Positions 11,701 through 34,461 of a DNA stretch of 40,105 nt are shown here, piece by piece. The notes under the pieces were generated by a model, which ran no database searches, had not been told where the DNA came from, and worked only from the letters and a program-made list of their open reading frames with translations. The DNA lies in NCBI GenBank assembly GCA_020439925.1, contig JAGRPC010000142.1, positions 325 through 40,429 of the forward strand. The letters are read 5' to 3'. Position 1 is the stretch's first letter. Each line of letters starts with the position of its first letter. Origin of the DNA: Verrucomicrobiia bacterium (lineage in GTDB: Bacteria > Verrucomicrobiota > Verrucomicrobiia > Verrucomicrobiales > DEV007). A program made the position numbers and the translations under genes.

Positions 11701-13141
11701 CGAACCCGCCTTCGATCCCGCCACCGACGACTTTGCGGCTTCGGTTACTAACGCCGTCACCGCGCTCACCGTCACGCCGACGTCCACCGAGCCCAACGCA
11801 GTGATCCAGGTCAAGATCAATGAGGGGGATTATGCTGATGTCTCCTCTGGCGATGCCAGCGGATCCCTTCCTCTTCTCGTCGGCGAGAACGTCCTCATGA
11901 TTCTCGTGACCGCGCAGGACACCACCACCACAAAGACCTACACCATCACCGTCAACCGAGACAAAGCCAGCCAGACGATCAGCTTTGCTGCAATCGGAGA
12001 TCAGCTCGCCAATGCCAGCATCGACCTCTCTGCTACCGGAGGAGGTTCTGGCAATCCCGTGACGTTCTCCGTGAACACACCGGGCCATCTTTCCGGGAAC
12101 ACCCTCACCTTCACCGGAGTCGGATCGGTCACGATCACCGCCAACCAAGCGGGTAATGCCAACTACCACGCTGCTGAGCCCGTCTCCCATACCTTCACTG
12201 TGACGAAGGCGACCGCCACGGTGAACCTCTCCGGTCTCGATCAAGTCTATAATGGAAATCCCCGTATCGTGAGTGCGACGACCAATCCGATGGGACTGTC
12301 GGTTGACCTCACCTACGCCGGGTCCGAATCTCCGCCGACGAGTGCAGGGACCTACGAGGTCATCGGCACCATTGTTAGCGAGATCTACCAGGGCAGCAAA
12401 ACAGCGAACCTCGTTGTCTCCCGGGCAGGGCAGACCATTAGCTTTCCTCCGATCATCGACCAGCTTGGAACGGCGTCGGTCCAGCTCACCGCTACCGGAG
12501 GCGACTCGGGTGAACCGATCGTCTTCACCGTGGCTAGCGGCCCCGCCATGATAGGGGCCGGCAACATCCTCACTTTCACCGGAGCCGGAACCGTCCAGAT
12601 ACGCATTTCCCAAGCAGGCGATGCGAATTTTGACCCCGCTGACAACGTCACCCACACCTTCGAAGTAGTGCTCCCTCAACCAGACGTGGCCGTGGGACTC
12701 TCCCTTCAGAATCTCAAGGGGTCGCTGATCTACGGATCGCCTTCGAGTCAGCGAATCACCCTGGTTTCTCGAAAGGCCCGAGTCGTGACTGGTTACGCCT
12801 CATTGGCGAATCGCACCCTTCTTTCCGACCGTCGTGCCGCCGACCAACTCGCAGTGAAGGCAACGCCCGGAAACCGGTTTTTCCGAGTGAGCTACTTCGT
12901 CGCGGAGGGTGTCGCAACCGCAGCCATAGTCAGCGGATCCTATCGGACACCTGCAATGGACGGAACTGATGCGCTCCGTTGGGTCACCGTTCGTATTTCT
13001 CCAAGCAGGTCCCGGTTCGCCATTAAGAAGGACCGAAGGACCGTCTACCTGCGCAAGGCATTTACAGCGACCCTCCGCGCCAGTTCCACGCTTTATCCGC
13101 CGGCATCCGATGCGGGTTCGATTCGAGTATTGACGAGATAG
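8765..13141 (+). CDS. Secreted giant protein: three FGE/SUMF1-like domains, cadherin-like and MBG-like domains
   Basis: 1458 residues. A signal peptide (about 1-35) and a beta-rich segment (35-128) precede three tandem formylglycine-generating-enzyme-like domains (about 128-398, 399-676, 677-949). Each repeats TETTK...W, HPV.SV.W, GYRLPTEAEWE, GN.WEWCWD or its variant, RGG.W and GFR. Then follow a cadherin-like beta-sandwich domain (about 955-1067, FDPATDDF...TYTITVNR), two QTISF-starting segments with an MBG-like domain between them (about 1070-1300), and a C-terminal beta domain I do not recognise. True FGE needs copper-binding cysteines after RGGS. Domains 1 and 2 lack them and domain 3 keeps one (ARVCKS). 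These domains therefore probably bind carbohydrate or protein, as in many C-lectin-fold relatives, rather than oxidise sulfatases. No sulfatase gene is near. It likely works at the cell surface. Confidence 0.85.
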   Translation: MDSKLRYCPRTVMPLLLFAAGLVTIVLETKVGAAPSVSNVAAALRPGTALIDITYDLEGDDLSSVLVKLEASSDGGATYEVPVDTASGEVGVGVVPGLGKAIVWNAGADWGGKYSTQMRFRVVAEKELAEVSGKTFTMGATSGDTDSNAPPTSVTVSSFLIQKTETTKRLWDKVRDWAVINGYPDLPPGAGKAPNHPVQSVNWWDVVKWCNARSEREGLSPCYRVSGMVYRSGEFTPDCDWSANGYRLPTEAEWERAARGAISGSRFPWGSDINHSYSNFQNSGGEAYQEGTTGYHPTFNDGVTPFTCPVGSFSSHGFGLSEMIGNVWEWCWDWDSPTAYLSSAGTTNPTGPASGTDRVRRGGAWTSFAVGQRISNRSSTAPSSATNAIGFRSVRTLTFGDFVRIPAGSVTLGVNPGDPETDAPTTSVFVDTFYLQKTETTKAQWDAVRTWALANGYTDLEAADGKAPEHPVHSVRWIEVVKWCNARSEMEGLHPCYYVGVNVLRTGESLPEVDWSANGYRLPTEAEWEKAARGEAEGKRFPWGTDSITHVEANYRSTTEHAYDISPTRGTHPTWTDASSVFSSPVGSFAPNAFGLYDMCGNMWEWCWDRYGSTHYSTIAGTWNPRGPNTGTNRVLRGGSWNRNAAYSRNGYRLSHGATSSTGSDGGFRPARSRIEDNFLMIESGRFRRGRITLDSDLDADPGNVTISGFEMEATETTKIQWDLVRTWALGNGYSDLAAGAGKFPDHPVQSVTWFDAVKWCNARSELEGLTPCYSVSGEVMRTGSAAPVCDWTADGYRLPTEAEWEKASRGGEENLRFPNGLSINHTRANFRNSGGESYANGTTGYHPTHDDGTLPYTSPVESFYGNGAELRNMAGNVAEFCWDYYNSSYYGTSIGATDPRGPAHGSDRVVRGGGWSSAARVCKSSFRSFSDPTVADTNSGFRTVRLPGSIGFNLSDLTLDTRSDEASLSSLALSEGDLEPAFDPATDDFAASVTNAVTALTVTPTSTEPNAVIQVKINEGDYADVSSGDASGSLPLLVGENVLMILVTAQDTTTTKTYTITVNRDKASQTISFAAIGDQLANASIDLSATGGGSGNPVTFSVNTPGHLSGNTLTFTGVGSVTITANQAGNANYHAAEPVSHTFTVTKATATVNLSGLDQVYNGNPRIVSATTNPMGLSVDLTYAGSESPPTSAGTYEVIGTIVSEIYQGSKTANLVVSRAGQTISFPPIIDQLGTASVQLTATGGDSGEPIVFTVASGPAMIGAGNILTFTGAGTVQIRISQAGDANFDPADNVTHTFEVVLPQPDVAVGLSLQNLKGSLIYGSPSSQRITLVSRKARVVTGYASLANRTLLSDRRAADQLAVKATPGNRFFRVSYFVAEGVATAAIVSGSYRTPAMDGTDALRWVTVRISPSRSRFAIKKDRRTVYLRKAFTATLRASSTLYPPASDAGSIRVLTR

Positions 13142-13246
13142 TGAACTTTCAAAGGATCGTGAATCTAGTTTTAATTCCGAGTGTTTCTTGCCCACTGCGA
13201 TTGCCCCTTGTCATTTGGCGGAGAGTTGCCGTTTAAGCCTCAGATT

Positions 13247-14152
13247 ATGAAAGGTGACGTTTTGGTTTTAGGGGCTGGTGCCTCGACCCCATACGGATTT
13301 CCGACCGGGAATGAGCTCAGAAACAAGATCCTGGAAGACTTCTCGTATGAAACGAAGGTCAACGGGGCGATCTTTCCGAAGATTCTAACGGTGGTTCAAG
13401 ATCCCCTGAATCTTCCGTTTTCTCCGGAACAATGTGCCCGATTCCGGGACGAGTTTCGCCTCGCCCAGACTTATTCGATCGACGCGTTCATTGAGCGCCG
13501 TGCCGAAGAGTTCCAAGAAATTGGCAAGTTTGCTATCTCCCACTGCCTGCGCCGGTGTGAATCTGAGGCGGCGCTTTTCGACACGGGTGACTGGTATCAG
13601 GCCTTTTGGAATCGAGTGCTTCCGAATGGCTACCCGTTTCTTCGTGAATTTACTGTAATCACGTTCAACTACGATCGGTCCCTTCAACACTACTTGATGA
13701 CGGCGGCTAAAGCGGCCCTTGGTCCCGCATACCGGGACGATATGTATGACCGCGTCCGGATTCTCCCCATGCACGGCAGCTTCTCGAAAGTTTCTGCTAA
13801 CGCCCCCTTTGGTAGCGATGAGGAAAGACACACCCCGGAGTTCGCCCGAAGCATCTACCTCCCTCACGAGTTCTCTGGGAAGAATTTGCAGTTCTCCCCC
13901 TTTGACAATGCGAGGGATGCTCTCTCTGATGCAAAGAGGATCTTCATCCTCGGTTTCGGGTTCGATGATACGAACACCGAGAGACTTTTCAACGACCTCG
14001 ATCTCTCAAAGGCTGAGATTCACGCGACCGGGGTGGGCCTCGGAGACGGCGTAAAACGACGCGCATGCGACGCCCTCAAGCGACCGCGCCAGGATCTCTT
14101 CTACAAAGGCGGTAACGCCACCATGGTCGAACTGATCTCCGACCTCGTCTGA
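13247..14152 (+). CDS. Stand-alone SIR2-like protein
   Basis: 301 residues from the ATG at 13247. The in-frame lead from 13181 looks untranslated. The Rossmann-type SIR2 fold is recognisable by GAGAS (9-13) followed by TPYGFPTGNEL, TFNYDRSL with N141 and D143, PMHGS with H176, and the late LGFGFDDTN. SIR2-like proteins of this type in defence islands bind or hydrolyse NAD+, often to starve infected cells. N and H, the residues used for NADase activity, are present. It stands alone with no partner gene within 100 bp, and 253 bp before the Type III cassette. It could be an orphan effector, or an NAD-binding protein of unknown role. Confidence 0.75.
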   Translation: MKGDVLVLGAGASTPYGFPTGNELRNKILEDFSYETKVNGAIFPKILTVVQDPLNLPFSPEQCARFRDEFRLAQTYSIDAFIERRAEEFQEIGKFAISHCLRRCESEAALFDTGDWYQAFWNRVLPNGYPFLREFTVITFNYDRSLQHYLMTAAKAALGPAYRDDMYDRVRILPMHGSFSKVSANAPFGSDEERHTPEFARSIYLPHEFSGKNLQFSPFDNARDALSDAKRIFILGFGFDDTNTERLFNDLDLSKAEIHATGVGLGDGVKRRACDALKRPRQDLFYKGGNATMVELISDLV

Positions 14153-14404: not shown

Positions 14405-17400
14405 ATGTCCAACCCCTTCTTCGACCACCCCATCCTGAACTCCCCCTACGAGTGCCCCGCGCGGCACTGGGAGCTGGACGGGGAAGGCCAGCCCACCCAG
14501 CAGATTCTCGAGGAACGGCGCAAGGCAAAGTTCATCACGCCCATCCCGAAGCCGAAGAAACGGAAAAAGGCGGACACCCAGCAGGAACTGGTTTTCGACG
14601 AGGGCATGGGGCTCTCGACCGCGCGGCAGCAGTATGATCCCACCTCCGTGATCAACGAGGTGCGAGGTTACGTCTCCACGTGGCGCAACCTGCCGCCGAA
14701 CCAATGGCAGGTCACTCCGGAAACCCAGCGACTCCTCCAGCACTGGCGCCACCACAAGTTCAACGACGTCCGCCCTTTCTTCTGCCAGGTCGAGGCGGTG
14801 GAGACGGCCATCTGGCTCACCGAGGTCGCCCCGCTCTCCCCCTCGGGCAAAAGGATCCTCAGCCTCCTCGACAGTGCCAACGAGGATGCCAACCCCGAGC
14901 TGAGCCGCCTCGCGCTGAAGCTGGCCACCGGCGCCGGGAAGACGACCGTGATGGCCATGCTCATCGCCTGGCACACGGTCAATGCCGTTCGTCGCCCCGG
15001 CAGCAAGCAGTTCACCCGCGGATTCCTGATCGTCGCCCCGGGGCTCACCATTCGGGACCGCCTGCGGGTCCTCCAGCCCCACGATCCCGACAGTTATTAC
15101 AAGAACCGCGAGCTGGTTCCCCACGACATGCTCGACGACCTGCACCGGGCCAAGATCGTGATCACGAACTACCACGCCTTCAAGTTGCGCGAGCGCATCA
15201 CCATTTCCAAAGGGGGGAAACAGCTCCTCAAAGGGAGAACGGGCGAGGAAATCCTCACCACCGAGACCGAAGGCCAGATGATCCAGAGGGTCATGCCCGA
15301 CCTCATGGGCATGAAGAACATCCTCGTCATCAATGATGAGGCGCACCACTGCTACCGTTCGAAGCCCAAGGACGAGTCCCAGGAGGAGGAGTTGAAGGGA
15401 GACGACAAGAAGGAGGCGGAGAAGAACAAGGAGGCCGCCCGCCTCTGGATCTCCGGGCTCGAGGCTGTGAAGCGGAAGCTCGGCCTCGCTCGGGTGGTCG
15501 ATCTGTCCGCCACCCCTTTCTTCCTGGCTGGATCCGGCTACGTCGAGGGCACCCTCTTCCCCTGGACCATGAGCGACTTTTCCCTCATGGACGCCATCGA
15601 GTGCGGCATCGTGAAGCTCCCCCGGGTTCCCGTGGCACAGAACATTCCCGGCGAGGAGATGCCGATGTTCCGGGAATTGTGGAAGCACATCCGCTCGAAG
15701 ATGCCGAAGAAGAGCCGGGGATCGGGCGAGGAACTCGATCCCCTGAAGTTGCCCACGCTGCTGAAAACCGCCCTCGACGCGCTCTACGGCCACTACGAAA
15801 AGACCTACCGACTCTGGGAGGATGCCGGGATCAGTGTGCCACCCTGCTTTATCATCGTCTGTCAAAACACCGCCATCTCCAAGCTGGTCTACGACTACGT
15901 GTCCGGATTCCAGCGCAAGAACGACGACGGCACCGCGACGCTGGAGAACGGACGGCTCCCCCTTTTCCGAAACTACGACGAGACCACCGGCAACGCCTTG
16001 CCCCGGCCGAACACCCTCCTCATCGACAGCGAGCAGCTCGAGTCCGGCGAGGCCCTCGACACGAACTTCCGCGCCATGGCCGCCGACGAGATCGATCGAT
16101 TCCGGCGCGAGATCGTGGAGCGCACCGGTGACATCCGGGCCGGCGAAAATCTCTCCGATCAGGAATTGCTTCGCGAGGTGATGAACACCGTGGGCAAGGC
16201 CGGTTCCCTCGGCGGGTCGATCCGCTGTGTCGTCTCCGTCTCCATGCTCACCGAGGGCTGGGATGCGAACACCGTCACCCACGTGCTCGGCGTGCGCGCC
16301 TTCGGCACCCAGTTGCTCTGCGAGCAGGTCATCGGGCGGGCCTTGCGCCGCCAATCCTACCAGCTCAACGAGGCAAATCTCTTCAACGTCGAATACGCCG
16401 ACGTGCTTGGCATCCCCTTCGACTTCACCGCCAAGCCGGTGATCTCGCCTCCTCAGCCTCCGCGGGAGACCATCCAGGTCCGCGCCGTCCGCCCGGAGCG
16501 GGACCATCTCGAGATCACCTTCCCCCGGGTCGAGGGATATCGGATCGAGCTGCCCGAGGAGAGGCTCACCGCCACCTTCGACGAAGATTCCGTCCTCGTG
16601 CTCACCCCCGAGATGACAGGGCCGACCAAGAACCGGAACGAGGGCATCATCGGACAGGGAGTCGACCTGACCGTCGATCACCTCGGCGACATGCGACCGT
16701 CCACCCTCGTCTTCCACCTCACCCAGCGGCTCCTCTACACAAAGTGGCGCGACCCGGGGGAGGAGCCCAAGCTGCACCTCTTCGGCCAGCTCAAGCGCAT
16801 CACGAAAGAATGGCTCGACACCTGCCTGCAATGCAAGGGCGGCACCTATCCGGCGCAGCTCATGTATCAGGAGTTCGCCGACATCGCCTGCGAGCGCATC
16901 ACCCGGGGCATCACCCAGGCCTTTCTCGGCGAGCGCCCCATCAAGGCCCTGCTCGATCCTTACAACCCCGACGGCTCCTCGCGCCATGTCCGCTTCAACA
17001 CCTCGAAGATGGACCGATGGGAAACGAACTCAGAAAAATGCCACGTGAACTGGGTCATCCTCGACAGCGACTGGGAAGCCGAGTTCTGCCGCGTTGCCGA
17101 GAGCCATCCGAAGGTGCTGGCCTACGTCAAGAACCACAACCTGGGCTTCGAGGTGCCCTACCGCTTTGCCGCCGAGGTGCGGAAATACCGACCTGACTTC
17201 ATCGTCCACGTCGATGATGGGCATGGCCCCGAGGATCCGCTGCACCTTGTCGTCGAGATCAAGGGCTACCGCCGCGAGGACGCCAAGGAGAAGGCCGCCA
17301 CGATGAAGACCTACTGGATCCCCGGCGTGAACCACCTCGGCACCCATGGTCGCTGGGCCTTTGCCGAGTTCTGCGACGTGTGGGAGATCGATGCGGACTT

Positions 17401-17479
17401 CGAGAAGAAGGTCGCGCAGGTGTTTGATGAGATGATTGCGAAAAGCTGCGAGGTCGCGATCTCGCATGCCTCCACTTGA
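14405..17479 (+). CDS. Type III restriction enzyme Res subunit (helicase-nuclease)
   Basis: A 1024-residue superfamily 2 helicase-nuclease that translocates on DNA and cuts when the partner Mod finds unmethylated sites. Visible: Walker A TGAGKTT (K179); NDEAHHCYR as motif II; DLSATPF as motif III; SMLTEGWDANTVTHVLGVR and QVIGRALRR as motifs V and VI; and a C-terminal PD-(D/E)XK nuclease with D931 in RPDF and E951-x-K953 in VEIKGYR. The N-terminus (MSNPFFDHPILNSPYECPARHW) is that of the BPTD_3080-like Res group. First gene of a five-gene operon: 12 bp to the zinc-ribbon gene, with its Mod two genes on. All motifs are intact, so it is likely active. Confidence 0.92.
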   Translation: MSNPFFDHPILNSPYECPARHWELDGEGQPTQQILEERRKAKFITPIPKPKKRKKADTQQELVFDEGMGLSTARQQYDPTSVINEVRGYVSTWRNLPPNQWQVTPETQRLLQHWRHHKFNDVRPFFCQVEAVETAIWLTEVAPLSPSGKRILSLLDSANEDANPELSRLALKLATGAGKTTVMAMLIAWHTVNAVRRPGSKQFTRGFLIVAPGLTIRDRLRVLQPHDPDSYYKNRELVPHDMLDDLHRAKIVITNYHAFKLRERITISKGGKQLLKGRTGEEILTTETEGQMIQRVMPDLMGMKNILVINDEAHHCYRSKPKDESQEEELKGDDKKEAEKNKEAARLWISGLEAVKRKLGLARVVDLSATPFFLAGSGYVEGTLFPWTMSDFSLMDAIECGIVKLPRVPVAQNIPGEEMPMFRELWKHIRSKMPKKSRGSGEELDPLKLPTLLKTALDALYGHYEKTYRLWEDAGISVPPCFIIVCQNTAISKLVYDYVSGFQRKNDDGTATLENGRLPLFRNYDETTGNALPRPNTLLIDSEQLESGEALDTNFRAMAADEIDRFRREIVERTGDIRAGENLSDQELLREVMNTVGKAGSLGGSIRCVVSVSMLTEGWDANTVTHVLGVRAFGTQLLCEQVIGRALRRQSYQLNEANLFNVEYADVLGIPFDFTAKPVISPPQPPRETIQVRAVRPERDHLEITFPRVEGYRIELPEERLTATFDEDSVLVLTPEMTGPTKNRNEGIIGQGVDLTVDHLGDMRPSTLVFHLTQRLLYTKWRDPGEEPKLHLFGQLKRITKEWLDTCLQCKGGTYPAQLMYQEFADIACERITRGITQAFLGERPIKALLDPYNPDGSSRHVRFNTSKMDRWETNSEKCHVNWVILDSDWEAEFCRVAESHPKVLAYVKNHNLGFEVPYRFAAEVRKYRPDFIVHVDDGHGPEDPLHLVVEIKGYRREDAKEKAATMKTYWIPGVNHLGTHGRWAFAEFCDVWEIDADFEKKVAQVFDEMIAKSCEVAISHAST

Positions 17480-17491
17480 TTCCTACGACCG

Positions 17492-18082
17492 ATGTCCACC
17501 GAGATTTGCCATTTCTGCGGTCACGAGATTCGCTTCCGGAACATCAAAGGCGCGCCGGTGCCTTTGCACCCCACGGGGAGTAATTGCTTGGGCAAGAAGC
17601 TTTACCAATTCGAGGCGCGCGACATCTGCCACCCCACGACCTGCCCCCGGTGCAGCGCCAACGTCTTTTTCATCCGCCACAATGGCGGCTGTGCCTGGTT
17701 CGATCAGTTGGGGGCTCCATGGGAGAAGCACCCATGCTTCGTTCGAGAGTCCGTCACACCCACGTCCTGGCAAAATCGAATGACCGAAGACTGGACCGTG
17801 CAGTTTCTCCTTTTCGAGGGCACTCTTCGTGATGCATCCGGCGGTGTCTTCGTGATCACCCCGAAACGTCTCGATAACCGGTGTTCGGGGAGGTATCGAC
17901 AGCAATTCAAAATGCAGCGTCCAGGGACCAATCATGAAAGCTTGTGGGCGTTGAACAGAAAATCTATTCTGCTGAACCAGACCCGTGATCAGGCTGTCAC
18001 CATGGACGGTGGAGTATGGAAAGTCTCCGAGCACACGCCCTCCTACCGCGAAGAACATCACCGGATCACTCGACTCTATTGA
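17492..18082 (+). CDS. Zinc-ribbon accessory protein of the Type III cassette
   Basis: 196 residues. An N-terminal zinc knuckle CHFCGHEI (C6, C9) and a second pair CPRC (C51, C54) are followed by VFFIRHNGG and a WFD...PWEKHPCF segment. This zinc-ribbon block is familiar from small proteins in bacterial accessory regions. The second half (about 85-196) is not recognised. It sits 12 bp after res and 48 bp before mod, so it is very likely co-expressed. It may bind nucleic acid or modulate the restriction complex, but no activity can be read from the sequence. Its role in restriction is inferred from position only. Confidence 0.65.
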   Translation: MSTEICHFCGHEIRFRNIKGAPVPLHPTGSNCLGKKLYQFEARDICHPTTCPRCSANVFFIRHNGGCAWFDQLGAPWEKHPCFVRESVTPTSWQNRMTEDWTVQFLLFEGTLRDASGGVFVITPKRLDNRCSGRYRQQFKMQRPGTNHESLWALNRKSILLNQTRDQAVTMDGGVWKVSEHTPSYREEHHRITRLY

Positions 18083-18130: not shown

Positions 18131-20956
18131 ATGCCCCCCAAGAAAAAGACCGCTGCCGCGAAGTCCGTCGAGACGATAAAACACTCGGAGGAAAAGCGGA
18201 AGAACATCCCCTCCGCCGAGCAGCAGTCCATCTTGCAGAAGGAGCACGAGCAGTCGCGGCAGGTGCGTTACCCGCGCAACACCGACCTCGACCCTCAGCT
18301 CGTCTGGCGGGGGAAGGACGAGCAGGACTGGAGCGATCTCGTCGTCCATGCCCCGCCGCTCTATATCCAGGAAAAGGTCCATCCCAAGGCCCTGATCGAC
18401 GACCTGCTGCGCCAGACGAAGGAGCGCCAGCACGACGAGGGCATGATCACCCCCGACCTCTTCGCTGACTTCAACGGCATCCCCAAGGGCGCGGACAAGA
18501 CCGAGTTCTACGCGCACGACCAGAACTGGAGCAACCGCATGATCCTCGGCGACTCCTTGCAGGTCATGGCCAGCCTCGCCGAACGCGAGGGCCTGCGGGG
18601 GAAGGTGCAGTGCATCTACTTCGATCCGCCCTACGGGATCAAGTTCAACAGCAACTTCCAGTGGAGCACGACAAGTCGGGACGTGAAGGACGGGAAGGTC
18701 GACCACATCACACGGGAGCCCGAGCAGGTGAAGGCATTCCGGGATACGTGGCGGGATGGAATTCACAGCTACCTCACCTACCTGAGGGACCGGCTGACCG
18801 TGGCGCGGGATTTATTGACGGATTCGGGGTCGATCTTCGTGCAGATCGGGGACGAGAATGTGCACCGGGTAAGGGCGGTGATGGATGAGGTGTTTGGGGA
18901 CCAAAATTCGTGCGGCTTTATTGCGTTCAAGAAAACAAGTGGTGCGGGGAGTTTTGCTGGAGGAACTGACCTGATTGCCGCCGTTTACGACTACATTCTG
19001 TGGTATTCAAAAGATATCAGCCGGGTGAAATATCGGCAGATGTATTACATCAAGGACCTTGCCGGCGTGGGAGGAGGGCAGTATTCACGCGTGCTTGAGC
19101 CGAATGGACGCGAAAGGGCGATTACACAAGAGGAAATCCAAGGAGGTAAAATTTGCGGAAGGGTGTTTCGTGGAGACAACCTAACTTCTCAAACGACTCG
19201 CGTTGGTCAGACGACAGTTTTTCCTGTCGAGGTTAGCGGAAACACGTTTTCTCCAGCAAAAGGGGGGTGGAAAACGAATCGTGTTGGCATGGATCGTTTG
19301 AAGCTCGCTGATAGGCTCTATCCACAGGGGAGGACTTTGTCATATCGTCGGTTCTTCGAGGACTTTGTCCTATTCCCCGTAGTCAATGCTTGGGACGACA
19401 CTGTTACGTCCGGGTTCGGAGAGACCAAGAACTACGTCGTCCAGACCAATACAAGAGTCATCGAACGCTGCCTCCTCATGGCCACCGATCCGGGCGACCT
19501 CGTGCTCGACCCGACCTGCGGTTCTGGCACCACGGCCACCGTCGCCGAGCAATGGGGCCGCCGCTGGATCACCATCGACACCTCGCGCGTGGCGCTGGCG
19601 CTGGCCCGCGCCCGCATCATGGGGGCGCGTTATCCCTTCTACCTGCTCGCCGATTCCAGGGAGGGCCAGCTCAAGGAAGCCGAAGTCGCCCGCACCGCAC
19701 CGAGTAGTCAGCCCGTCCACGGCAACATCCGCCACGGCTTCGTCTACGATAGGGTGCCGCACATCACTCTGAAATCCATCGCCAACAACGCGGAAATCGA
19801 TGTGATCTGGGAACGGTTCGAGGAGCAGCTCAAACCCGTTCGGGAAAGGTTTTCAGGTTTCAGTTTGAAGTTTTCAAGGGGGAAGGTGCCGGAGGAGTGG
19901 GAGATTCCCCGGGAACGGCCGAAAGATTGGCCACAGGAAACCCAATCGCTGCTGGACGAGTTCTGGGAACTTCGAATCGCACGCCAGAAAGAGATCGACG
20001 CCTCCATCTCCGCCAAGGCCGAATACGAATTCCTCTACGACAAACCCTACACCGACTCGAAGAAGGTCCGTGTTGCCGGCCCCTTCACCGTCGAAAGCCT
20101 CAGCCCGCACCGTGTCCTCGCCGTCGATGAGAACGACGAGCTGATTGACACCGTGCAGGAACCCGGTGCCGACTACCTGGCCAAGCAGTCCTTCCCCCAG
20201 ATGGTCCTCGAAAACCTCAAGACCTCCGGGGTGCAACAGGCCCACAAGGCCGATCGCATCACCTTCAACTCTCTCGTCCCCTGGCCGGGTGAGGGGCGGA
20301 TCTGTGCCGAGGGACGCTACCTCGAGGGCGACGCCGAAAAGCGCGCCGGCATCTTTGTCGGTCCCGAGTTCGGCACGGTTCAGCGAGCCGATCTCGTCGA
20401 GGCTGCCCGCGAGTGCGGCGATGCGGGCTTCGACGTGCTGATCGCCTGCGCTTTCAACTACGAGGCCCACACCACCGAGTTCAACAAGCTGGGCCGCATC
20501 CCCGTGCTGAAGGCCCGCATGAACGCCGATCTCCACATGGCCGAGGATCTCAAGAACACGGGGAAGGGCAACCTCTTCGTCATCTTCGGCGAGCCCGACA
20601 TCGACCTGATCACAGAGGACGATGGAGGCCTCCGCGTAAAAGTGAACGGCGTCGATGTCTTCAAACCCCAGACCGGCGAAGTGATCAGCGATGGAGCCGA
20701 CGGCATCGCCTGCTGGTTCATCGACACGGATTACAACGAGGAGAGCTTCTTCGTCCGCCACGCCTACTTCCTCGGCGCGAACGACCCCTACGGTTCGCTC
20801 AAAACCACCCTGAAGGCCGAGATCGACGCCGATGCCTGGTCCACCCTCCACAGCGACACCAGCCGCCCCTTCGAGAAACCGACGAGCGGACGGATCGCCG
20901 TGAAGGTCATCAACCACCTCGGGGATGAGGTGATGAAGGTTTTTAGAATCGCTTAA
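18131..20956 (+). CDS. Type III DNA methyltransferase Mod subunit
   Basis: 941 residues. An amino-methyltransferase of the beta class: motif IV DPPYG (D165) precedes motif I DPTCGSGTTA (D460), with the target-recognition region between them. It modifies adenine in an asymmetric site and guides Res. It is long for Mod. The C-terminal half (about 520-941) has an extended region (VLIACAFNYEAHTTEFNKL, GNLFVIFGEPDID) typical of the large Mod variants paired with BPTD_3080-like Res. The segment from about 18900 to 19450 (TRD) is clearly poorer in GC and in C-ending codons than the flanks, which suggests a swapped recognition domain. The stop is 3 bp before the Argonaute start. Confidence 0.92.
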   Translation: MPPKKKTAAAKSVETIKHSEEKRKNIPSAEQQSILQKEHEQSRQVRYPRNTDLDPQLVWRGKDEQDWSDLVVHAPPLYIQEKVHPKALIDDLLRQTKERQHDEGMITPDLFADFNGIPKGADKTEFYAHDQNWSNRMILGDSLQVMASLAEREGLRGKVQCIYFDPPYGIKFNSNFQWSTTSRDVKDGKVDHITREPEQVKAFRDTWRDGIHSYLTYLRDRLTVARDLLTDSGSIFVQIGDENVHRVRAVMDEVFGDQNSCGFIAFKKTSGAGSFAGGTDLIAAVYDYILWYSKDISRVKYRQMYYIKDLAGVGGGQYSRVLEPNGRERAITQEEIQGGKICGRVFRGDNLTSQTTRVGQTTVFPVEVSGNTFSPAKGGWKTNRVGMDRLKLADRLYPQGRTLSYRRFFEDFVLFPVVNAWDDTVTSGFGETKNYVVQTNTRVIERCLLMATDPGDLVLDPTCGSGTTATVAEQWGRRWITIDTSRVALALARARIMGARYPFYLLADSREGQLKEAEVARTAPSSQPVHGNIRHGFVYDRVPHITLKSIANNAEIDVIWERFEEQLKPVRERFSGFSLKFSRGKVPEEWEIPRERPKDWPQETQSLLDEFWELRIARQKEIDASISAKAEYEFLYDKPYTDSKKVRVAGPFTVESLSPHRVLAVDENDELIDTVQEPGADYLAKQSFPQMVLENLKTSGVQQAHKADRITFNSLVPWPGEGRICAEGRYLEGDAEKRAGIFVGPEFGTVQRADLVEAARECGDAGFDVLIACAFNYEAHTTEFNKLGRIPVLKARMNADLHMAEDLKNTGKGNLFVIFGEPDIDLITEDDGGLRVKVNGVDVFKPQTGEVISDGADGIACWFIDTDYNEESFFVRHAYFLGANDPYGSLKTTLKAEIDADAWSTLHSDTSRPFEKPTSGRIAVKVINHLGDEVMKVFRIA

Positions 20957-20959
20957 TGG

Positions 20960-23900
20960 ATGGACCAAAAGGATTTTCTATCGATCGATGCGCTTGTGCG
21001 CTCGCTGGCGGTTAATCGTGGACGCCCGGTCTGCCTTTTGCTTGGCGCTGGCGCCTCCATTTCTTCTGGAATGCCTTCGGCTCAGCGGTGCATTTGGGAG
21101 TGGAAGCAGGACATTTTTGTAACGAACAACCCGACCCTTCGAGAGACGGTTGGCGAGCTGTCGCTTCCCGGAACCAGACAGCGCATTCAGCGGTGGCTGG
21201 ATCAGCGTGGCAATCATCCTGTGGAGGGGGACTCCGACGAATATTCGTTCTTTGCCGAGGCGTGCTATCCAACCGTGCAGGATCGGCGTGCATATTTTGA
21301 ACCCTACGTCGCCAAGGCAAAGCCTCATACCGGTTATCGCCTCCTTGCGCAACTATCCAAGGCGGGGCTGGTGCGGAGCGTGTGGACGACCAACTTCGAC
21401 GGCTTAGTGGCCCGTGCCAGCGCTGCCGCAGATGTAATCTGCTTCGAGATCGGGATCGATACGCAGCACCGCGCCGAACTTCCGCAGACACGCGGAGCGC
21501 TGAGGGCGATTTCGCTGCACGGAGACTACCGCTATGACAAGTTGAAGAACACGGCAGCAGAACTACAACAGCAGGAAGCGGCTCTCCGTGAGGAGTTCTT
21601 ACACGAACTCCGAGATTATGACCTCGTGGTCCTTGGTTACAGCGGTCGGGACGCTTCTATCATGAATGTTTTGCGGCAGGCATATGAGAGGACGACACCT
21701 AGCCGCTTGTTTTGGTGCGGATTTGGCAGCGATACTCCAGCGCCGGTCGAAGAACTGATCGGCGCCGCTCGCGCGGCAGGAAACGACGCATTCTACATCG
21801 CGACAGATGGCTTTGATGATTTAATTACCCGCCTTGCACTACGTCAATTGGAGGGGGATTTGCTGACGAGCGCGAAGGCAATTCTGGGAGAAGTTACGGC
21901 GACGGCAGTCGTCCCCGCGGCCTTTGCGGTGCCTTCCCATCCGGCTACGGCACTGGTCAAAAGCAATGCGTATCTGCTCACTTTTCCATCCCACGCACTA
22001 AAGGTCCCGGTAGACATCCCATCGGGCGAAAATCGACGGCATTGGCTCGATGATAGACTTCCGCCAGAAAAAGGCGCACTGGTGGCGATGGATGACGGAG
22101 CGCTGGCTTTTGCGGACAGCAAAGACATTCAAGATGCCTTCAAAGGTCAACTGCGCTCGAACCCAATCGCTGCCGCCATTTCCGCAGACGATTTGGCAAA
22201 CGACGGGCGCATCCGCTCACTCCTTCGCAGGGCACTCGTGCAGAGCCTTGCAAATGACCTTGGCGCGATGACCGATCACAGTCGGCGGTTGTGGGAATCT
22301 TCGCATTACGAAGAGCGCCTGCACAACGGCGTCAAGTATCGGGTGCATGCCGCAGTGTCTTTCCGTTTGGAATCGATCGCAGGCAAGCCACACGTTGCGC
22401 TCATGCCAGAGGTCATGGTCACAATGGCCGATGGCACCCTCGCGGACCGCGACACGAGCAAGATGATTAGAAACGCGGTGTATGGCTTTCAGCACAACCA
22501 TGTCTTTGATAGTAATTTGAAATACTGGACCAACAGAATAGGCAACATTGACTTCCCGGCGAAAGGAGGTGGAGTTTTTCGCATCGGTCGTGCGCCGATT
22601 TATGCGGGCCTTTTCCAAAACGGGCGAAGCGCACTTCCTCAAGAAGTGCAGCGGCACGGTCGACAGCAGGGTCTCGTTGTGCCTGACGCCGACCTACTTT
22701 TCAGTTCAGCCAACGGCACGGTAGAAGTCCGCGACAAGAATCCGCTCAAAGGGTTGGTTCAAAATCGGCCGTGGGACTATCAGCTTACAACCTCAGGTCT
22801 GTCGGTGTCCGTCGAAGTTGCGGCGATCTGCCCGGCACAGGATGCGGGTAAGTTGCAAAGGTTTCTGAATCAGCTTCAGGAACGCGCCGAGCCCAACACC
22901 AACTCCGAGCGCGACTACCTGCAAATCTTTCCAGGGTTTTCCCAGGCCTTTGGCCTGCCGCTCAATTGTCCCGTCCGTGGACAAAACGGCTGGATCGATC
23001 TTGACGACGCCGTCGCCGGTGAAGGGCTGGCAGCCGCAAAGCAGCTTGCCAATAGAATCTGTGGTGCGTTAGACGTTATTCGCAGCACGCGCCCCCGGGC
23101 CGTCGCCACGATCTTTGTGCCATTTTGGTGGGCTCCATATGAGAAAATCGACACTGATACCGAACACTTCGATCTTCATCATTTCCTCAAAGCGTATGCG
23201 GCAAGGCACGGGCAGAGCACGCAGTTCATACGTGAGAAGACGGTCATCGCTCAACAGCACTGCCGGGTGCGCTGGTGGTTTTCACTCGCGCTTTATGCCA
23301 AAGCCCAGCGCACCCCGTGGAGGCTCGATTGCCTGGATGATGAAACTGCCTTCGTCGGAATCGGATACAGTCTCGACTCAGGTGCCGCACGGGGACACCA
23401 TGTTCTCCTTGGTTGCAGCCATCTCTACAATGCACGTGGGGAGGGTTTACAATTTCGGCTGGGTCGGATTGAAGATCCGATAATTCGAGGAAGGAACCCG
23501 TTCATGTCAGTCGACGACGCACGAAGAACCGGGGAGACGATCCGGCAGCTATTCTTCGACGCGAAAATGAGACTCCCTGGCCGAGTAGTGGTTCACAAGA
23601 GAACTGCGTTCACTGCCGACGAGCAACGAGGCCTGTTACAGGGATTGGAGGGCGTTCCCAACATCGAGTTGATCGAGGTCACCATTGAAGAATCCTTACG
23701 CTACCTGGCTTCGAAGATGAGCAATGGACGTCCGGAGATAGATACGTTTCCAATTCCACGTGGAGCAGTCATTGTCCTCGACAAAACCTCAGCACTCTTA
23801 TGGGTCCACGGTGCCACTCCGAATGCTCAAAACCCGAGTCGGAAGTATTATCAAGGAAAGCGACGTATACCCACGCCATTGCTAATTCGGCGCTTTCGCG

Positions 23901-24082
23901 GGCAATCGGATATCACGCAGGTCGCGACTGAGATTCTCGGCCTGTCGAAAATGAACTGGAACACCTTCGATTACTACTCCCGCCTCCCGGCGACTCTCGA
24001 CTCGGCGAGCGCTATTGCCAAGGTGGGTGCCTATCTTACAGGATTCGGCTGGGCACCTTACGACTATCGGCTCCTAATTTGA
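20960..24082 (+). CDS. Single-chain SIR2-APAZ-short Argonaute fusion (SPARSA-type)
   Basis: 1040 residues. A SIR2 NADase domain (about 20-290) has GAGAS (29-33), TTNFD with N145, and SLHGD with H187. An APAZ-like region follows (about 330-560), then MID and PIWI-like domains (about 690-1040). The MID-PIWI part carries signatures of short prokaryotic Argonautes: FDLHHFLKAYAARHGQSTQF, WWFSLALYAKAQRTPW, GCSHLYNARGEGLQFRLG, RVVVHKRTAF. The first PIWI catalytic Asp is replaced (FVGIGYS), so it should not slice. Known SPARSA systems, usually two genes, use guide RNA to sense invading DNA and then destroy NAD+ via SIR2, killing the cell. Here both halves are one polypeptide, inserted between mod (3-bp gap) and the helicase gene (9-bp gap), with codon use less C-ending than the neighbours. 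Confidence 0.9.
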   Translation: MDQKDFLSIDALVRSLAVNRGRPVCLLLGAGASISSGMPSAQRCIWEWKQDIFVTNNPTLRETVGELSLPGTRQRIQRWLDQRGNHPVEGDSDEYSFFAEACYPTVQDRRAYFEPYVAKAKPHTGYRLLAQLSKAGLVRSVWTTNFDGLVARASAAADVICFEIGIDTQHRAELPQTRGALRAISLHGDYRYDKLKNTAAELQQQEAALREEFLHELRDYDLVVLGYSGRDASIMNVLRQAYERTTPSRLFWCGFGSDTPAPVEELIGAARAAGNDAFYIATDGFDDLITRLALRQLEGDLLTSAKAILGEVTATAVVPAAFAVPSHPATALVKSNAYLLTFPSHALKVPVDIPSGENRRHWLDDRLPPEKGALVAMDDGALAFADSKDIQDAFKGQLRSNPIAAAISADDLANDGRIRSLLRRALVQSLANDLGAMTDHSRRLWESSHYEERLHNGVKYRVHAAVSFRLESIAGKPHVALMPEVMVTMADGTLADRDTSKMIRNAVYGFQHNHVFDSNLKYWTNRIGNIDFPAKGGGVFRIGRAPIYAGLFQNGRSALPQEVQRHGRQQGLVVPDADLLFSSANGTVEVRDKNPLKGLVQNRPWDYQLTTSGLSVSVEVAAICPAQDAGKLQRFLNQLQERAEPNTNSERDYLQIFPGFSQAFGLPLNCPVRGQNGWIDLDDAVAGEGLAAAKQLANRICGALDVIRSTRPRAVATIFVPFWWAPYEKIDTDTEHFDLHHFLKAYAARHGQSTQFIREKTVIAQQHCRVRWWFSLALYAKAQRTPWRLDCLDDETAFVGIGYSLDSGAARGHHVLLGCSHLYNARGEGLQFRLGRIEDPIIRGRNPFMSVDDARRTGETIRQLFFDAKMRLPGRVVVHKRTAFTADEQRGLLQGLEGVPNIELIEVTIEESLRYLASKMSNGRPEIDTFPIPRGAVIVLDKTSALLWVHGATPNAQNPSRKYYQGKRRIPTPLLIRRFRGQSDITQVATEILGLSKMNWNTFDYYSRLPATLDSASAIAKVGAYLTGFGWAPYDYRLLI

Positions 24083-24091
24083 CTCAGTTTC

Positions 24092-26164
24092 ATGCAATTC
24101 CGCATCGCCGACACCTTCACCGACAGCCTCGCCCGCCTCACCGGCGACGAGCAAAAGTCCGTGAAGATGACCGCCTTCGACCTGCAGATGAACCCGGCCA
24201 ACCCGGGGATGAGCTTCCACAAGCTCGACAAGGCGAAGGACAAGAACTTCTGGTCGGTGCGGGTCAGCTCCGACATCCGCCTGATCGTTCACAAGACGGC
24301 GAGCAGCCTGCTGCTCTGCTACGTTGATCACCACGACAAGGCCTACGCCTGGGCCGAGCGGCGGCGCCTGGAGACGCACCCGACGACCGGAGCGGCACAG
24401 TTGGTCGAGATCCGTGAAACGGTGCAGGAGGTCATCGTGCCGGTCTACCGTCAGGCGGAGATCGAGTTTCCGCCCAAGCCGCCGCTGTTTCGCGACCGTT
24501 CCGACAAGGAGCTGTTGGGATACGGAGTGCCCGCGGATTGGCTCGATGAGGTGCGCGTGGCAACGGAGGACAATCTCCTGCTGGTGGCGGAACGCCTGCC
24601 CGGGGAGGCGGCCGAAGCATTGCTGGAACTGGCCACCGGCGGCAAACCCTCCATTTTCACGAAGGCGGGACCGGAGATCGACCCGTTCGAACACCCCGAC
24701 GCCCAGCGCCGCTTCCGGGTGATGACCAACATCGAGGAACTGGAGCAGGCTCTCGACTATCCATGGGACAAGTGGACCGTCTTCCTCCACCCCGAGCAGC
24801 GCGAGTTCGTCGAGCGCAGCTACTCCGGACCTGCCCGCGTCTCCGGATCGGCAGGCACGGGGAAAACCATCGTCGCGCTGCACCGGGCCGTGTCCCTTGC
24901 CCGGCAACACCCGGAGGCCAGGGTCCTGCTCACCACCTTTTCCGATCCTCTCGCGAATGCCCTTGCCGCCAAGCTGCGTCGATTGGTGGGCACACAACCC
25001 AGGCTCGCCGAACGCATCGACGTTCTCTCCCTTCCCGCTGTGGGTGCTCGACTCTACCAGTCCCACCATGGGCCGGTGAAGCTCGCAGCCCGGGACGTGG
25101 TGAAATCACTGGTCGTCGAAGCGGCAAAGGCGGTGGACGGACATCGTTTCGCTATCCCCTTCCTGCTCTCCGAGTGGGAAGAAATTGTCGATGCCTGGCA
25201 GTTGGAAAGCTGGGAGGACTATCGGGAAGTCGCCCGACTGGGACGCAAAACCCGCCTGCCGGAGGCCCAGCGCGCCGTCGTCTGGTCCATCCTTGCACAG
25301 GTCCCCGGCGCCTTGCGGGAACGCGGGCTGATCACGCCCGCCACCCTTTTCACGACGCTGGCCAAGGATCTCGCTGCCGCGAACCATCCTCCCTACGATT
25401 TCGCCGTCGTCGATGAATCGCAGGATATCGGCATCGCTCACCTGAGGTTCTTCGCCGCTCTCGGTGCCGATCGTCCCGACGCCCTGTTCTTTGCCGGCGA
25501 CCTGGGACAGCGTATTTTCCAGCAACCCTTCTCCTGGAAATCGCTGGGGGTGGACATCCGTGGCCGCTCCCGCAACTTGCGGGTGAACTACCGAACCTCT
25601 CACCAGATCCGCCAACAGGCCGACCGGCTCCTCGGACCCGAGGTCGCCGACATCGACGGCAACATCGAAGTCCGGAGCGACACGATCTCGGTTTTCGATG
25701 GGCCAGCTCCGGAGGTCACCATCACCAACTCCGAGGAGGAGGAATCCAAGAGGGTTGCCTCGTGGATCCAAGAGGGTCTGGCGGACGGGGTGGCTCCCCA
25801 CGAAATCGCTGTCATCGTCCGCAGCGAGGCCCAACTTTCGCGCGCGCAAGGCGCCGTGGAACTGGCCGGGGCAGACCACAAGCTCCTCGACGGCACCAAC
25901 GACACGGCCACGGGGCGGGTCTCAATCTGCACGATGCCGCTCTCAAAGGGGCTGGAATTCCGCTCCGTCGCGGTGATGGCCTGCGACGACGAGATCGTGC
26001 CGCTGCAGGATCGGATCGAAACCGTGGGGGATGATGCCGATCTTCAGGAAGTCTACGACACGGAAAGGCACCTCCTCTACGTGGCCTGCACCCGGGCGCG
26101 CGACAAGCTCCTCATCACCAGCGTCGCCCCGGCCTCGGAGTTCCTGGATGATCTAAGGGGGTGA
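24092..26164 (+). CDS. RelE-like domain fused to UvrD/Rep-family helicase
   Basis: 690 residues. The first 100 have the RelE/ParE toxin fold pattern (FHKLDKAKDKNFWSVRVSSDIRLIV, then LLLCYVDHHDKAYAWAERR). From about 240 on lies a superfamily 1A helicase: Walker A GSAGTGKT (K258), motif II VDESQD, motif IV VNYRTSHQIR, motif V MPLSKGLEF, motif VI YVACTRARDKLL. SF1A helicases move 3'-5' on single-stranded DNA. The RelE-like part keeps the surface pattern of the fold, but whether it cuts mRNA cannot be judged. Last gene of the Type III cassette, 9 bp after the Argonaute. It may process DNA ends made by Res, or supply substrates to the Argonaute; both are guesses. Confidence 0.82.
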   Translation: MQFRIADTFTDSLARLTGDEQKSVKMTAFDLQMNPANPGMSFHKLDKAKDKNFWSVRVSSDIRLIVHKTASSLLLCYVDHHDKAYAWAERRRLETHPTTGAAQLVEIRETVQEVIVPVYRQAEIEFPPKPPLFRDRSDKELLGYGVPADWLDEVRVATEDNLLLVAERLPGEAAEALLELATGGKPSIFTKAGPEIDPFEHPDAQRRFRVMTNIEELEQALDYPWDKWTVFLHPEQREFVERSYSGPARVSGSAGTGKTIVALHRAVSLARQHPEARVLLTTFSDPLANALAAKLRRLVGTQPRLAERIDVLSLPAVGARLYQSHHGPVKLAARDVVKSLVVEAAKAVDGHRFAIPFLLSEWEEIVDAWQLESWEDYREVARLGRKTRLPEAQRAVVWSILAQVPGALRERGLITPATLFTTLAKDLAAANHPPYDFAVVDESQDIGIAHLRFFAALGADRPDALFFAGDLGQRIFQQPFSWKSLGVDIRGRSRNLRVNYRTSHQIRQQADRLLGPEVADIDGNIEVRSDTISVFDGPAPEVTITNSEEEESKRVASWIQEGLADGVAPHEIAVIVRSEAQLSRAQGAVELAGADHKLLDGTNDTATGRVSICTMPLSKGLEFRSVAVMACDDEIVPLQDRIETVGDDADLQEVYDTERHLLYVACTRARDKLLITSVAPASEFLDDLRG

Positions 26165-31770: not shown

Positions 31771-32514
31771 ATGGAAGAATTCTACATCGGCGATCCCGAC
31801 TATCAGCAGGGGCACTGGCAGCTTCAGAATCTGCCTGATAATTGCGCGGTCGTTGCGCAGGCGAGCATTCTCAGCCAGTTCGGCTTCGATGTCTCCATGG
31901 ACGAGGCGACCTATGTGGCGATGGCGAACGGATGGTATTCGCCCGGGTTCGGCACCTCGCCCGACGACCTCGGGAACGTTCTGGAAGCCTACGGCGTGCC
32001 CACCCACTCGGTCGATTTCGCCTCCATCGAGCAATTGGCTGCCGAATTGCAGCAGGGGCATCGAGTGTTGGTCGGAGTGAATAGTGGCGAACTCTGGGAT
32101 CAGGGACCGATGGCGGAGTTCTGGAACTGGTTCAACGAAGTCACAGGGCGGGACTCGTCGACCTTTACACCCGCCGATCACGCCGTGGCGGTCACCGGCC
32201 TCGATCTGAGCGATCTGAACCATCCGCAGGTCATCCTGAACGATCCGGGGCACCCCGACGGAGCAGGGCAGGTTTACCCCCTCGATCGCTTCATGGACGC
32301 GTGGGAGAACAGCGACTTCCACTACACCTCCACCTCGATGGCTCCCGGGGGAGCCGGACCGATCGATTTCGACATCGCCCGGTTCCTTGGGTTGGGGACT
32401 ACTGTCGCCGGCGTCTCTTTCGGACTCGATCCCATCACGGCGGACATGGCGGGCGACTTCGTGAACTCCCTCGTCAGCAACACCGACTGGGATGCCGTTC
32501 TCGCCGCCATCTGA
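31771..32514 (+). CDS. C39-like papain-fold protein in the dynamin/Hsp70 operon
   Basis: 247 residues from the ATG at 31771; upstream in-frame codons overlap the GrpE-like gene. Q19 and C25 in WQLQNLPDNCAVVAQ, H137 in TPADHAVAVTGLDL, and N157-D158 in VILNDPG give a complete papain-like set. The C-terminal 60 residues (DFDIARFLGLGTTVAGVSFGLDPI) hold a hydrophobic, glycine-rich stretch. It may be a protease or transglutaminase-like effector, or a regulator that processes an operon partner. Gaps are 32 bp upstream and 8 bp downstream. Similarity to the other C39-like protein (6104-6700) is limited to the active-site pattern. Confidence 0.7.
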   Translation: MEEFYIGDPDYQQGHWQLQNLPDNCAVVAQASILSQFGFDVSMDEATYVAMANGWYSPGFGTSPDDLGNVLEAYGVPTHSVDFASIEQLAAELQQGHRVLVGVNSGELWDQGPMAEFWNWFNEVTGRDSSTFTPADHAVAVTGLDLSDLNHPQVILNDPGHPDGAGQVYPLDRFMDAWENSDFHYTSTSMAPGGAGPIDFDIARFLGLGTTVAGVSFGLDPITADMAGDFVNSLVSNTDWDAVLAAI

Positions 32515-32522
32515 AAAACCAA

Positions 32523-34457
32523 ATGACCAAGGAACCCAAACCATTGCCCAACCTCGACGCAGTAGCCAACCTGATGACTCGGGTGGGATTGTTCGACGAG
32601 CAGATCGTCGGAAAGCGGGACGAGGACTATTTCTCCAGCATCGGCCCGGTGGCACTCGGGCTTTTTCGCCTCGTCGTCATTGGCGAGATCAAGAAGGGCA
32701 AGTCTTCCTTCATCAACGCCCTCTGCGGGATCCCCGGGCTCGTTCCGGTTCACGATGATGTGGCGACTTCGACCGTCTTCAAGATTCACCATGCCCCCGA
32801 GCCGGGATACACCGTCTTTTTCCAGCCCGAAGCGGAAGACAAAACATCGGAGATCGGGACCCAAAAGCTGGAGATCTCCGAGGCAGACCTCCACAGCTAC
32901 GGCACGGAGAACGGCAATCCCGACAACGAAAAGCGGGTCGACTTCATCGCGGTCTGCGCCCCTTCCCCGATTCTCAAGGACGGTTTGATTGTCGTCGATA
33001 CCCCCGGAGTCGGCGGGCTCTTCAAGAAGCACCGGGAGATCACGTTCCGTCATGCCCCGCGGGCTGATGCGGTCTTCTTCATCACCGACAGCGTCGAATC
33101 CCCGATCGGAGCAGCGGAAGTCGATTTCCTGAAGGAACTCCGGCGAATCACCCCCCTGATCTACTTCGTGCAGACCAAGGCCGCACAGGTGGATGCCGAA
33201 GCCAGGCGGAAGCGAATGGAGAACAATATCGGCATCCTGACCGACAAGGTCGGACTTAAGAAGGAGGAGATTCGATACTTTGTTGTCGATTCAAAACTGA
33301 AGTCGGAGGGGGACGAGGACCGAAACCTCGAGGATCTGGAGGATAGCGGATTCCCCCCGCTGATGTCCTACCTCCAGCATTCGCTCAAGGCTTCAAAAGA
33401 CCGCAATATCGCCACCGTGGGGCTTCGCAGGGCCTGGTCCAAGATCGCCGAGATCCGCGCGGAGATCGATCGACAGAAATCTGTCGTGTCGGCCGACACA
33501 GCCGAGAAGCAGTCGGCGTTCAACGCCGAGCTGGCCACCACGGAAGAGAAGCTGAAGCAGTGGAACTCCGAAATCCGGATCCAGTTGATCAAGGAGTTTC
33601 ACACCGAGGCCCAGGCGATCCAGAATGACATCCTCGGAGAGGTTTCCGAAGCGCTCCGTGTCGGAGGGAGGATCTCCGAGCAGGTTGGAGAGGCTCTTTC
33701 CGAGTCCCGGGATTTGAAACCAGAAGAGATCTACGGGTTGGTGGAACCGCTCTCAGCGGCTGCACGGGCGGAGGTTTCGCAGGTTCTTTTGGAATGCAGC
33801 CAGAAGCTCGAGGGACGTTTCTCCGCACTTCTGGGAGCGCTTTCCGTCAAAGCGGAAGGGAGCATCGCCACCACTGCCCTGAGCAGAGGGGTGATCAACA
33901 ACGCCACCCTGATTCGATTCTCGGATGCCCAGCTCCGGGATCTGGCCGCAAAGGCGGAAGAGTCGCGGTTATTTGATCGAGCCAGAACTGGCCTCTACGG
34001 CGGAGCCGCCGGCGTTGGAATCGCCATGGGGATCGGGGCGGTCGTGGGATCGGTCATTCCGGTTGTGGGAACGATTTTGGGCAGCACCGCGGGAATGGTG
34101 ATCGCCGGGCTTTGGGGTGGGTATCAGGCGAGCGAGTTCTCGCGGGTCAAGGAATCCGCTGTTGCACGACAACAAGTGCAAGCCGCGATTGACCGGGATT
34201 TGCAGGGATGCCTGACTCAGGCCCAGACAGGGTTCCAGAAGGCATTCAACACTCTCCGATCCAGGGCCGAAGAGGCTTTGAGCGACATGGTGAAGACGAG
34301 TCTCGATCAGTTGAGCAACACCCGCCAGGAACTCCAGCAACGGAGCAGGGCCACCGCAGAAGAGGTTCAGAGGACGAAGCAACAGATCCATGGGCGAGAG
34401 CAGATGCTGGCGGCGCTCCAGGGAGAAATGGAGGCGATGGAAAGGCTGCTCGGATAG
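32523..34457 (+). CDS. Dynamin-like GTPase A (membrane-type)
   Basis: 644 residues. GTPase motifs: G1 GEIKKGKS (54-61), G2 Thr in ATSTV, G3 DTPG (159-162), G4 QTKA (about 217). Long helices follow (330-480 and 575-640, TEEKLKQWNSE..., EVQRTKQQIHGREQML), with a hydrophobic glycine-rich hairpin (about 500-540, GVGIAMGIGAVVGSVIPVVG) that can enter membranes like the paddle of bacterial dynamins. The family reshapes or fuses membranes on GTP hydrolysis. The ATG at 32523 fits the 8-bp spacing; the open frame to the left overlaps the C39-like gene. It forms a pair with the next gene, as bacterial dynamins often do. Confidence 0.85.
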   Translation: MTKEPKPLPNLDAVANLMTRVGLFDEQIVGKRDEDYFSSIGPVALGLFRLVVIGEIKKGKSSFINALCGIPGLVPVHDDVATSTVFKIHHAPEPGYTVFFQPEAEDKTSEIGTQKLEISEADLHSYGTENGNPDNEKRVDFIAVCAPSPILKDGLIVVDTPGVGGLFKKHREITFRHAPRADAVFFITDSVESPIGAAEVDFLKELRRITPLIYFVQTKAAQVDAEARRKRMENNIGILTDKVGLKKEEIRYFVVDSKLKSEGDEDRNLEDLEDSGFPPLMSYLQHSLKASKDRNIATVGLRRAWSKIAEIRAEIDRQKSVVSADTAEKQSAFNAELATTEEKLKQWNSEIRIQLIKEFHTEAQAIQNDILGEVSEALRVGGRISEQVGEALSESRDLKPEEIYGLVEPLSAAARAEVSQVLLECSQKLEGRFSALLGALSVKAEGSIATTALSRGVINNATLIRFSDAQLRDLAAKAEESRLFDRARTGLYGGAAGVGIAMGIGAVVGSVIPVVGTILGSTAGMVIAGLWGGYQASEFSRVKESAVARQQVQAAIDRDLQGCLTQAQTGFQKAFNTLRSRAEEALSDMVKTSLDQLSNTRQELQQRSRATAEEVQRTKQQIHGREQMLAALQGEMEAMERLLG

Positions 34458-34461
34458 GTTG

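Follow-up and report, generated by a model that had tools for sequence, protein, structure and literature searches.

The SPARSA system of Geobacter sulfurreducens (GsSPARSA; PDB 8in8, 8jkz, 8y7z, 8y80) is encoded by two genes and carries SIR2, APAZ, MID and PIWI domains in that order. The same set of domains also occurs in single polypeptides: SIR2-APAZ-PIWI fusions were already listed by Makarova in 2009 (PMC2743648), and 106 APAZ-containing short prokaryotic Argonautes (pAgos), 102 of them with SIR2, were described by Ryazansky in 2018 as one monophyletic branch (PMC6299218). In the latter work, APAZ group Ia comprises 117 proteins, and group Ib comprises 150 proteins, mostly SIR2-APAZ proteins without MID-PIWI from two-gene systems. 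Single-chain APAZ-Agos were treated as functional polypeptides in later papers (PMC10954474, PMC10810196), and PADLOC already holds full-length models of single-chain SIR2-APAZ pAgos (PDLC02384, PDLC02420). A further group of described systems has an effector nested between restriction-modification (R-M) genes: PrrC in EcoprrI, DarTG2 in a type I R-M system, and the Hma-embedded candidates ("guilt-by-embedding"). Passages of PMC12255303 (citing Payne and others) and of PMC12988326 present the embedding of defence genes within others as a published principle.

Here, we analyzed a stretch of 40,105 nt (the window) from a Verrucomicrobiia bacterium, in which a single-chain SIR2-APAZ short Argonaute is encoded inside a restriction operon. 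The Argonaute is an R-M-embedded gene, and the site it occupies is empty or otherwise filled in related operons. The fused protein itself belongs to a known family, and the operon context is more informative than the fusion; the novelty lies in the setting, which is a new testable instance of embedding. In the open-licence literature, no paper was found on this operon backbone or on the placement of an Argonaute in it. The features of the locus are as follows.

14405..17479, + strand: restriction endonuclease/helicase (RE) of the BPTD_3080 family (NCBIfam NF046055, 1375 bits)
17492..18082, + strand: slot-1 gene, 196 aa, Cys-rich, no family match
18131..20956, + strand: site-specific DNA methylase (Mod, N6_N4_Mtase; PADLOC MTase_III), by profile matches
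20957..24091, + strand: slot 2, from the methylase stop to the helicase start, variable in relatives and empty in some
20960..24082, + strand: single-chain SIR2-APAZ-MID-PIWI short Argonaute (SPARSA type), 1040 aa, by PADLOC, phmmer and structure matches
20960..21904, + strand: SIR2 NADase domain, about aa 1-315, by Pfam SIR2_2 and PDB profile alignment
21947..22609, + strand: APAZ (N-L1-L2) region, about aa 330-550, by structure match; sequence similarity to the APAZ part is weak
22652..24079, + strand: MID-PIWI, aa 565-1040, Z 41.7 to 8y7z_B
24092..26164, + strand: UvrD-like helicase, last backbone gene, with a conserved N-terminal domain (MxFRIADTF...)

The Argonaute frame is unbroken from the ATG at 20960 to the TGA at 24080-24082 and encodes 1040 aa. 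All motifs quoted in the original prediction were located in this translation: GAGAS (29-33), TTNFD (143-147) and SLHGD (185-189) in the SIR2 domain, and FDLHHFLKAY (737-746), GIGYS (800-804), GCSHLYNARGEG (818-829) and RVVVHKRTAF (875-884) in the Argonaute half. The profile search that it had proposed placed SIR2_2 above the Pfam cut-off and gave 1297 bits for the PADLOC full-length pAgo model over residues 5-1040; the PADLOC Aga_SIR2 model scored 625 bits over residues 8-1040. In phmmer searches against PDB sequences, the GsSPARSA Ago was matched over residues 591-1038 (E 1.9e-46) and GsSir2-APAZ over residues 24-326 (E 7e-31). These sequence matches are far above chance.

An AlphaFold2 model, built on 30 aligned relatives taken from genome contigs, reached a mean pLDDT of 85.4 and a pTM of 0.75, and GsSPARSA chains were top-ranked when it was compared by Foldseek and VIA-align. 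Residues 565-1040 superpose on the GsSPARSA MID-PIWI (8y7z_B) with Z 41.7 and rmsd 2.1 A over 445 residues, which identifies a MID-PIWI without PAZ. Residues 7-549 superpose on GsSir2-APAZ (8y80_E, chain residues 4-580) with Z 30.3 over 500 residues, so the APAZ (N-L1-L2) domain is present; the rmsd of this match, 6.3 A, is larger because it was superposed over two domains. Both halves therefore have the folds whose absence was named as a refutation of the original prediction, and its reading of SIR2, APAZ and MID-PIWI in one SPARSA-like chain agrees with PADLOC, Pfam, phmmer and the fold matches. GsSPARSA and the Argonaute share domain order and fold; they differ in gene number (two genes versus one), with about 25% identity over MID-PIWI.

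An assembly join as the source of the fusion was ruled out, because about 30 other genomes encode relatives that agree with the protein in length and domain order. One genome scan yielded 41 loci with fused-Argonaute relatives in at least 8 phyla. A single-chain system from Paraburkholderia has reportedly been assayed. Compared with the single-chain pAgos of group Ia (Ryazansky 2018; PDLC02384, PDLC02420), the protein has the same architecture, the same length and a full-length model match, and no protein difference was found, whereas the operon slot is absent from their published descriptions. The single chain had been proposed as unusual enough to be a finding in itself; since the fused architecture was described in 2009 and, with 102 SIR2 cases, in 2018, the fusion was rejected as a novelty (PMC2743648, PMC6299218, PMC10954474, PMC10810196).

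The same prediction held that the fusion fixes a 1:1 stoichiometry and could change filament assembly or activation. One chain does fix the ratio, and the PDB titles report filaments for the short-pAgo nuclease systems SPARDA and SPARHA; however, the two-gene SPARSA complex already has a 1:1 ratio, as a heterodimer (PMC10474274, PMC10781750). In short pAgo complexes the N-terminus of Ago adjoins the C-terminus of APAZ, and an engineered single-chain AfAgo acted like the split AfAgo heterodimer (PMC10954474). Higher oligomers of GsSPARSA were not reported in one study (PMC10474274), while PDB titles name dimeric and tetrameric SPARSA (8k87, 8y80), and therefore the state of split SPARSA is itself unsettled. 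The suggested effect on filaments or activation thus found no support, and altered biochemistry of the fused chain, through a fixed ratio or changed oligomers or filaments, is very improbable as an account of this locus.

The residues known to be needed in GsSPARSA were compared through the PDB profile alignment. N145 and H187 of the Argonaute align with the Asn/His dyad of GsSir2, N142 and H186, and are invariant in 30 sequences; alanine mutants of either GsSir2 residue lost NADase activity (PMC10781750). In the guide 5'-phosphate pocket of GsAgo, the residues H166, K170 and Q181 align with H740, K744 and Q755, which are likewise invariant in 30 sequences; K170 is required for NADase activity (PMC10781750). 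In contrast, GsAgo N184, R190 and N195, which contact the guide, correspond to R758, A764 and R769 in the ungapped stretch from Q755 to W772; in GsAgo, the N184A mutant and the R190A/N195A double mutant abolish activity, their requirement for the NADase acting via guide binding (PMC10781750). By this alignment, the 5'-phosphate pocket is kept and the base contacts are not. With these three residues replaced, the preference for the guide 5' end probably differs from that of GsSPARSA, and the guide type itself may be different. The PIWI site had been predicted to be inactive, and it probably is: the first Asp region reads AFVGIGYS and aligns with the inactive GsAgo segment, in a comparison with an inactive Ago alone.

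By homology to GsSPARSA, a small guide RNA would be held by MID-PIWI and APAZ, and its pairing with invader DNA would shift the PIWI domain. This shift would release or open the SIR2 domain, which would then hydrolyse NAD+, so that the infected cell halts or dies. Guide loading, DNA pairing, SIR2 release and NAD+ loss, in this order, are the most likely course of events predicted by analogy.

The five genes of the operon (RE, slot-1 gene, methylase, Argonaute and UvrD-like helicase) are arranged in tandem on the + strand, with the methylase stop 3 nt before the Argonaute ATG and the Argonaute stop 9 nt before the helicase ATG. The methylase matches PADLOC MTase_III over its full length (1384 bits), while the RE, a member of NCBIfam BPTD_3080, matches PADLOC REase_III weakly; among the PADLOC matches listed, there was no Hma match for the RE-methylase-helicase backbone. 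Predicted promoters and terminators showed no excess over shuffles. Given this packing, the Argonaute would be co-transcribed with the R-M genes and would back up restriction with a second, suicidal layer; the simplest reading of the operon is that a suicide effector is co-expressed behind restriction.

Several details of the operon genes were observed in passing. The slot-1 protein (17492-18082, +) has two CxxC-like pairs and, like the Argonaute, a low GC3. Within the methylase, GC3 falls from about 0.8-0.9 to 0.48-0.66 at codons 200-400 (18731-19330), a pattern that would suit an exchange of the target-recognition part. The N-terminal domain of the helicase (about 95 aa, 24092-24379) is conserved and by eye resembles RelE/ParE; a profile built from 11 sequences had no match among PDB sequences, and the RelE/ParE identity was not retained.

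Related operons were collected with two queries. The RE was run against the phylum of the window (289 genomes, 26 of them matching) and against plasmids (40 records). The methylase was run against IMG/VR (18 loci), the class to which Acidithiobacillus belongs (274 genomes) and two more phyla (249 and 247 genomes); in phage records it had no match at 1e-60. The backbone, in the order endonuclease - slot 1 - methylase - slot 2 - helicase, is shared by operons from several phyla, from plasmids and from IMG/VR contigs, and it was found without the Argonaute in other bacteria, plasmids and IMG/VR contigs. Slot 2 is empty in 11 and filled in 29 of the 40 loci with a methylase followed by a helicase (the window among the filled), a count of sampled loci that includes a few near copies (L095/L103) and is not a frequency estimate. 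One locus (L078) was scored as empty because a split methylase inflated its gap. At empty sites, the methylase stop and the helicase start overlap as TAATG in the Pseudomonas plasmids L084 and L087 and in the IMG/VR locus L105, and as ATGA in L098.

The cargo of slot 2 is diverse and often of defence type: a GmrSD type IV endonuclease (HEC-06), HerA with a partner, an ABC-3C pair (PDC-M68), AAA_15 or AAA/HEC-01 with a partner, a Schlafen-AlbA ATPase, a HEC-07-like protein, HNH, an M78/IrrE peptidase, a methylase-HATPase-methyltransferase set, and proteins without a family match (366+144 aa, 254 aa, 159 aa and others). Slot 1 is variable too, with GmrSD_N, NYN, BRO-N, Schlafen and a UPF0175/DUF3368 pair. 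The 366-aa protein (L093, 2832-3929; L183, 8835-9932; and others) was seen with its small partner in IMG/VR contigs and a genome of the phylum Acidobacteriota. In L178 (8672-9445), a TIR-TM gene stands right after the methylase, and the helicase is missing.

Defence genes cluster generally, and Ryazansky 2018 found no defined operon composition for these pAgos (PMC6299218), so the Argonaute might merely lie near an R-M system by chance, with no special slot. This is disfavoured and highly improbable, since many loci share one codon-level insertion junction (after the methylase VMKVFRV-stop in every case, and usually just before the helicase MxFRIAD), the cargo lies on the operon strand, and empty sites exist.

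The Argonaute directly follows this methylase family in three loci: the window (Verrucomicrobiota), Acidithiobacillus and Gemmatimonadota. In Acidithiobacillus ferrivorans (L017), the same RE and methylase precede the Argonaute, without the helicase after it; in the Gemmatimonadota MAG (L023), whose Argonaute is 41% identical to that of the window, the contig ends on both sides of the methylase and Argonaute. The window is the only one of the three that is complete through the helicase. On the Argonaute tree, the three methylase-linked Argonautes require three or more label changes, a result repeated in bootstraps, and the three linked methylases lie apart on a quick tree of the methylases. 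The closest relative of the window's methylase is that of another Verrucomicrobia MAG (L131; SH-aLRT 98), which has GmrSD in slot 2 and, on another contig (L004), a 71% identical Argonaute. The scattering of the three loci on both trees, together with GmrSD in the locus with the nearest methylase, amounts to cargo exchange at a fixed site. In agreement with this exchange, the GC3 of the Argonaute is atypical: 0.60, with 0.68 for the slot-1 gene, against 0.87, 0.78 and 0.81 for the RE, methylase and helicase (p 4e-5 for the Argonaute contrast on blocks, neighbouring blocks being taken as independent). In A. ferrivorans, GC3 is 0.53 for the Argonaute and 0.58 for slot 1 against 0.76 for the backbone.

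Among 28 genomes with a fused Argonaute, a methylase match (1e-40) was found in five, and the link between the two is therefore recurrent but a minority; most fused Argonautes are found outside this operon, which the Argonaute thus does not require for its existence. No relative of the fused Argonaute was confirmed in viral contigs. Other arrangements were seen as well: Roseitalea (L036) has methylase-Res-Ago, a Latescibacterota MAG (L014) has Ago-methylase-Res, and L018-L022 have a conserved 873-aa DEAD/ResIII helicase (truncated in L018) 3-15 nt upstream of the fused SIR2-APAZ-Ago. The latter form a two-gene pair, and their Argonautes belong to another clade, from Planctomycetota, Acidobacteriota and Acidiphilium.

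Taken together, we consider it probable that the protein is an RNA-guided NADase effector of abortive infection, of the SPARSA type, carried as cargo in a mobile restriction-modification-helicase operon. Its nested position and tight spacing, its repeated occurrence after the same methylase family in three phyla with at least three label changes on the Argonaute tree, and the R-M or ResIII/DEAD-helicase genes adjoining other fused Argonautes (L036, L014, L018-L022) would also suit a PrrC-like guard, wired to the R-M operon and firing mainly on inhibition of restriction or on single-stranded invader fragments produced by restriction or the helicase. Published precedents are PrrC inside EcoprrI (PMC12707154) and DarTG2 inside a type I system. 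However, the genes found in slot 2 are many and unrelated, and about a quarter of the sampled loci have none there; such varied or absent cargo is better explained by generic cargo than by a dedicated partner. Moreover, most fused Argonautes lack the operon, with the methylase match in only 5 of 28 genomes, and BrxU, encoded by a GmrSD gene within a BREX island, works independently of BREX (PMC12707154). We thus regard the guard role as unlikely, although not negligible. Quite unlikely, too, is the bolder proposal that the RE, methylase and helicase form a two-slot chassis to which the slot-2 Argonaute is wired, either because restriction and the helicase supply ssDNA targets or guide precursors, or because failure of restriction frees the SIR2 domain; the whole would then be a coupled system of restriction and RNA-guided suicide.

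Generic cargo of a mobile operon, the reading we prefer, links the locus to the known cases of embedding, and several slot-2 cargoes match the Hma-embedded models HEC-01, HEC-06 and HEC-07. The backbone, unlike those of these systems, combines a BPTD_3080 RE, a type III-like methylase and a UvrD-type helicase, and a guard role here is a candidate. The slot amounts to a natural experiment, in which one R-M backbone, in several phyla and plasmids, has a base-exact site that some genomes leave empty and others fill with an Argonaute, a type IV endonuclease, HerA, OLD-like ATPases or other genes. It allows one to ask directly whether suicide effectors are taken up by restriction systems as plug-ins, and whether such a plug-in senses the state of restriction. 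Because several cargoes have no family match, the slot is also a route to new defence genes.

Elsewhere in the window, a tyrosine-integrase ORF (252-2228) overlaps a predicted tRNA-Leu on the opposite strand (934-1015, -); an att-site search around this tRNA gave no repeat of at least 14 nt elsewhere in the window. A 1458-aa protein (8765-13141) has three FGE-sulfatase-type stretches with cadherin-like and MBG domains. Just upstream of the restriction operon lies a second SIR2_2 protein of 323 aa (13181-14152, +), and across the genome SIR2_2 is matched by this protein and the Argonaute only. Two overlapping dynamin-family GTPases (32301-34457 and 34390-35991) are followed by an HSP70-Sel1 protein (36003-37664).
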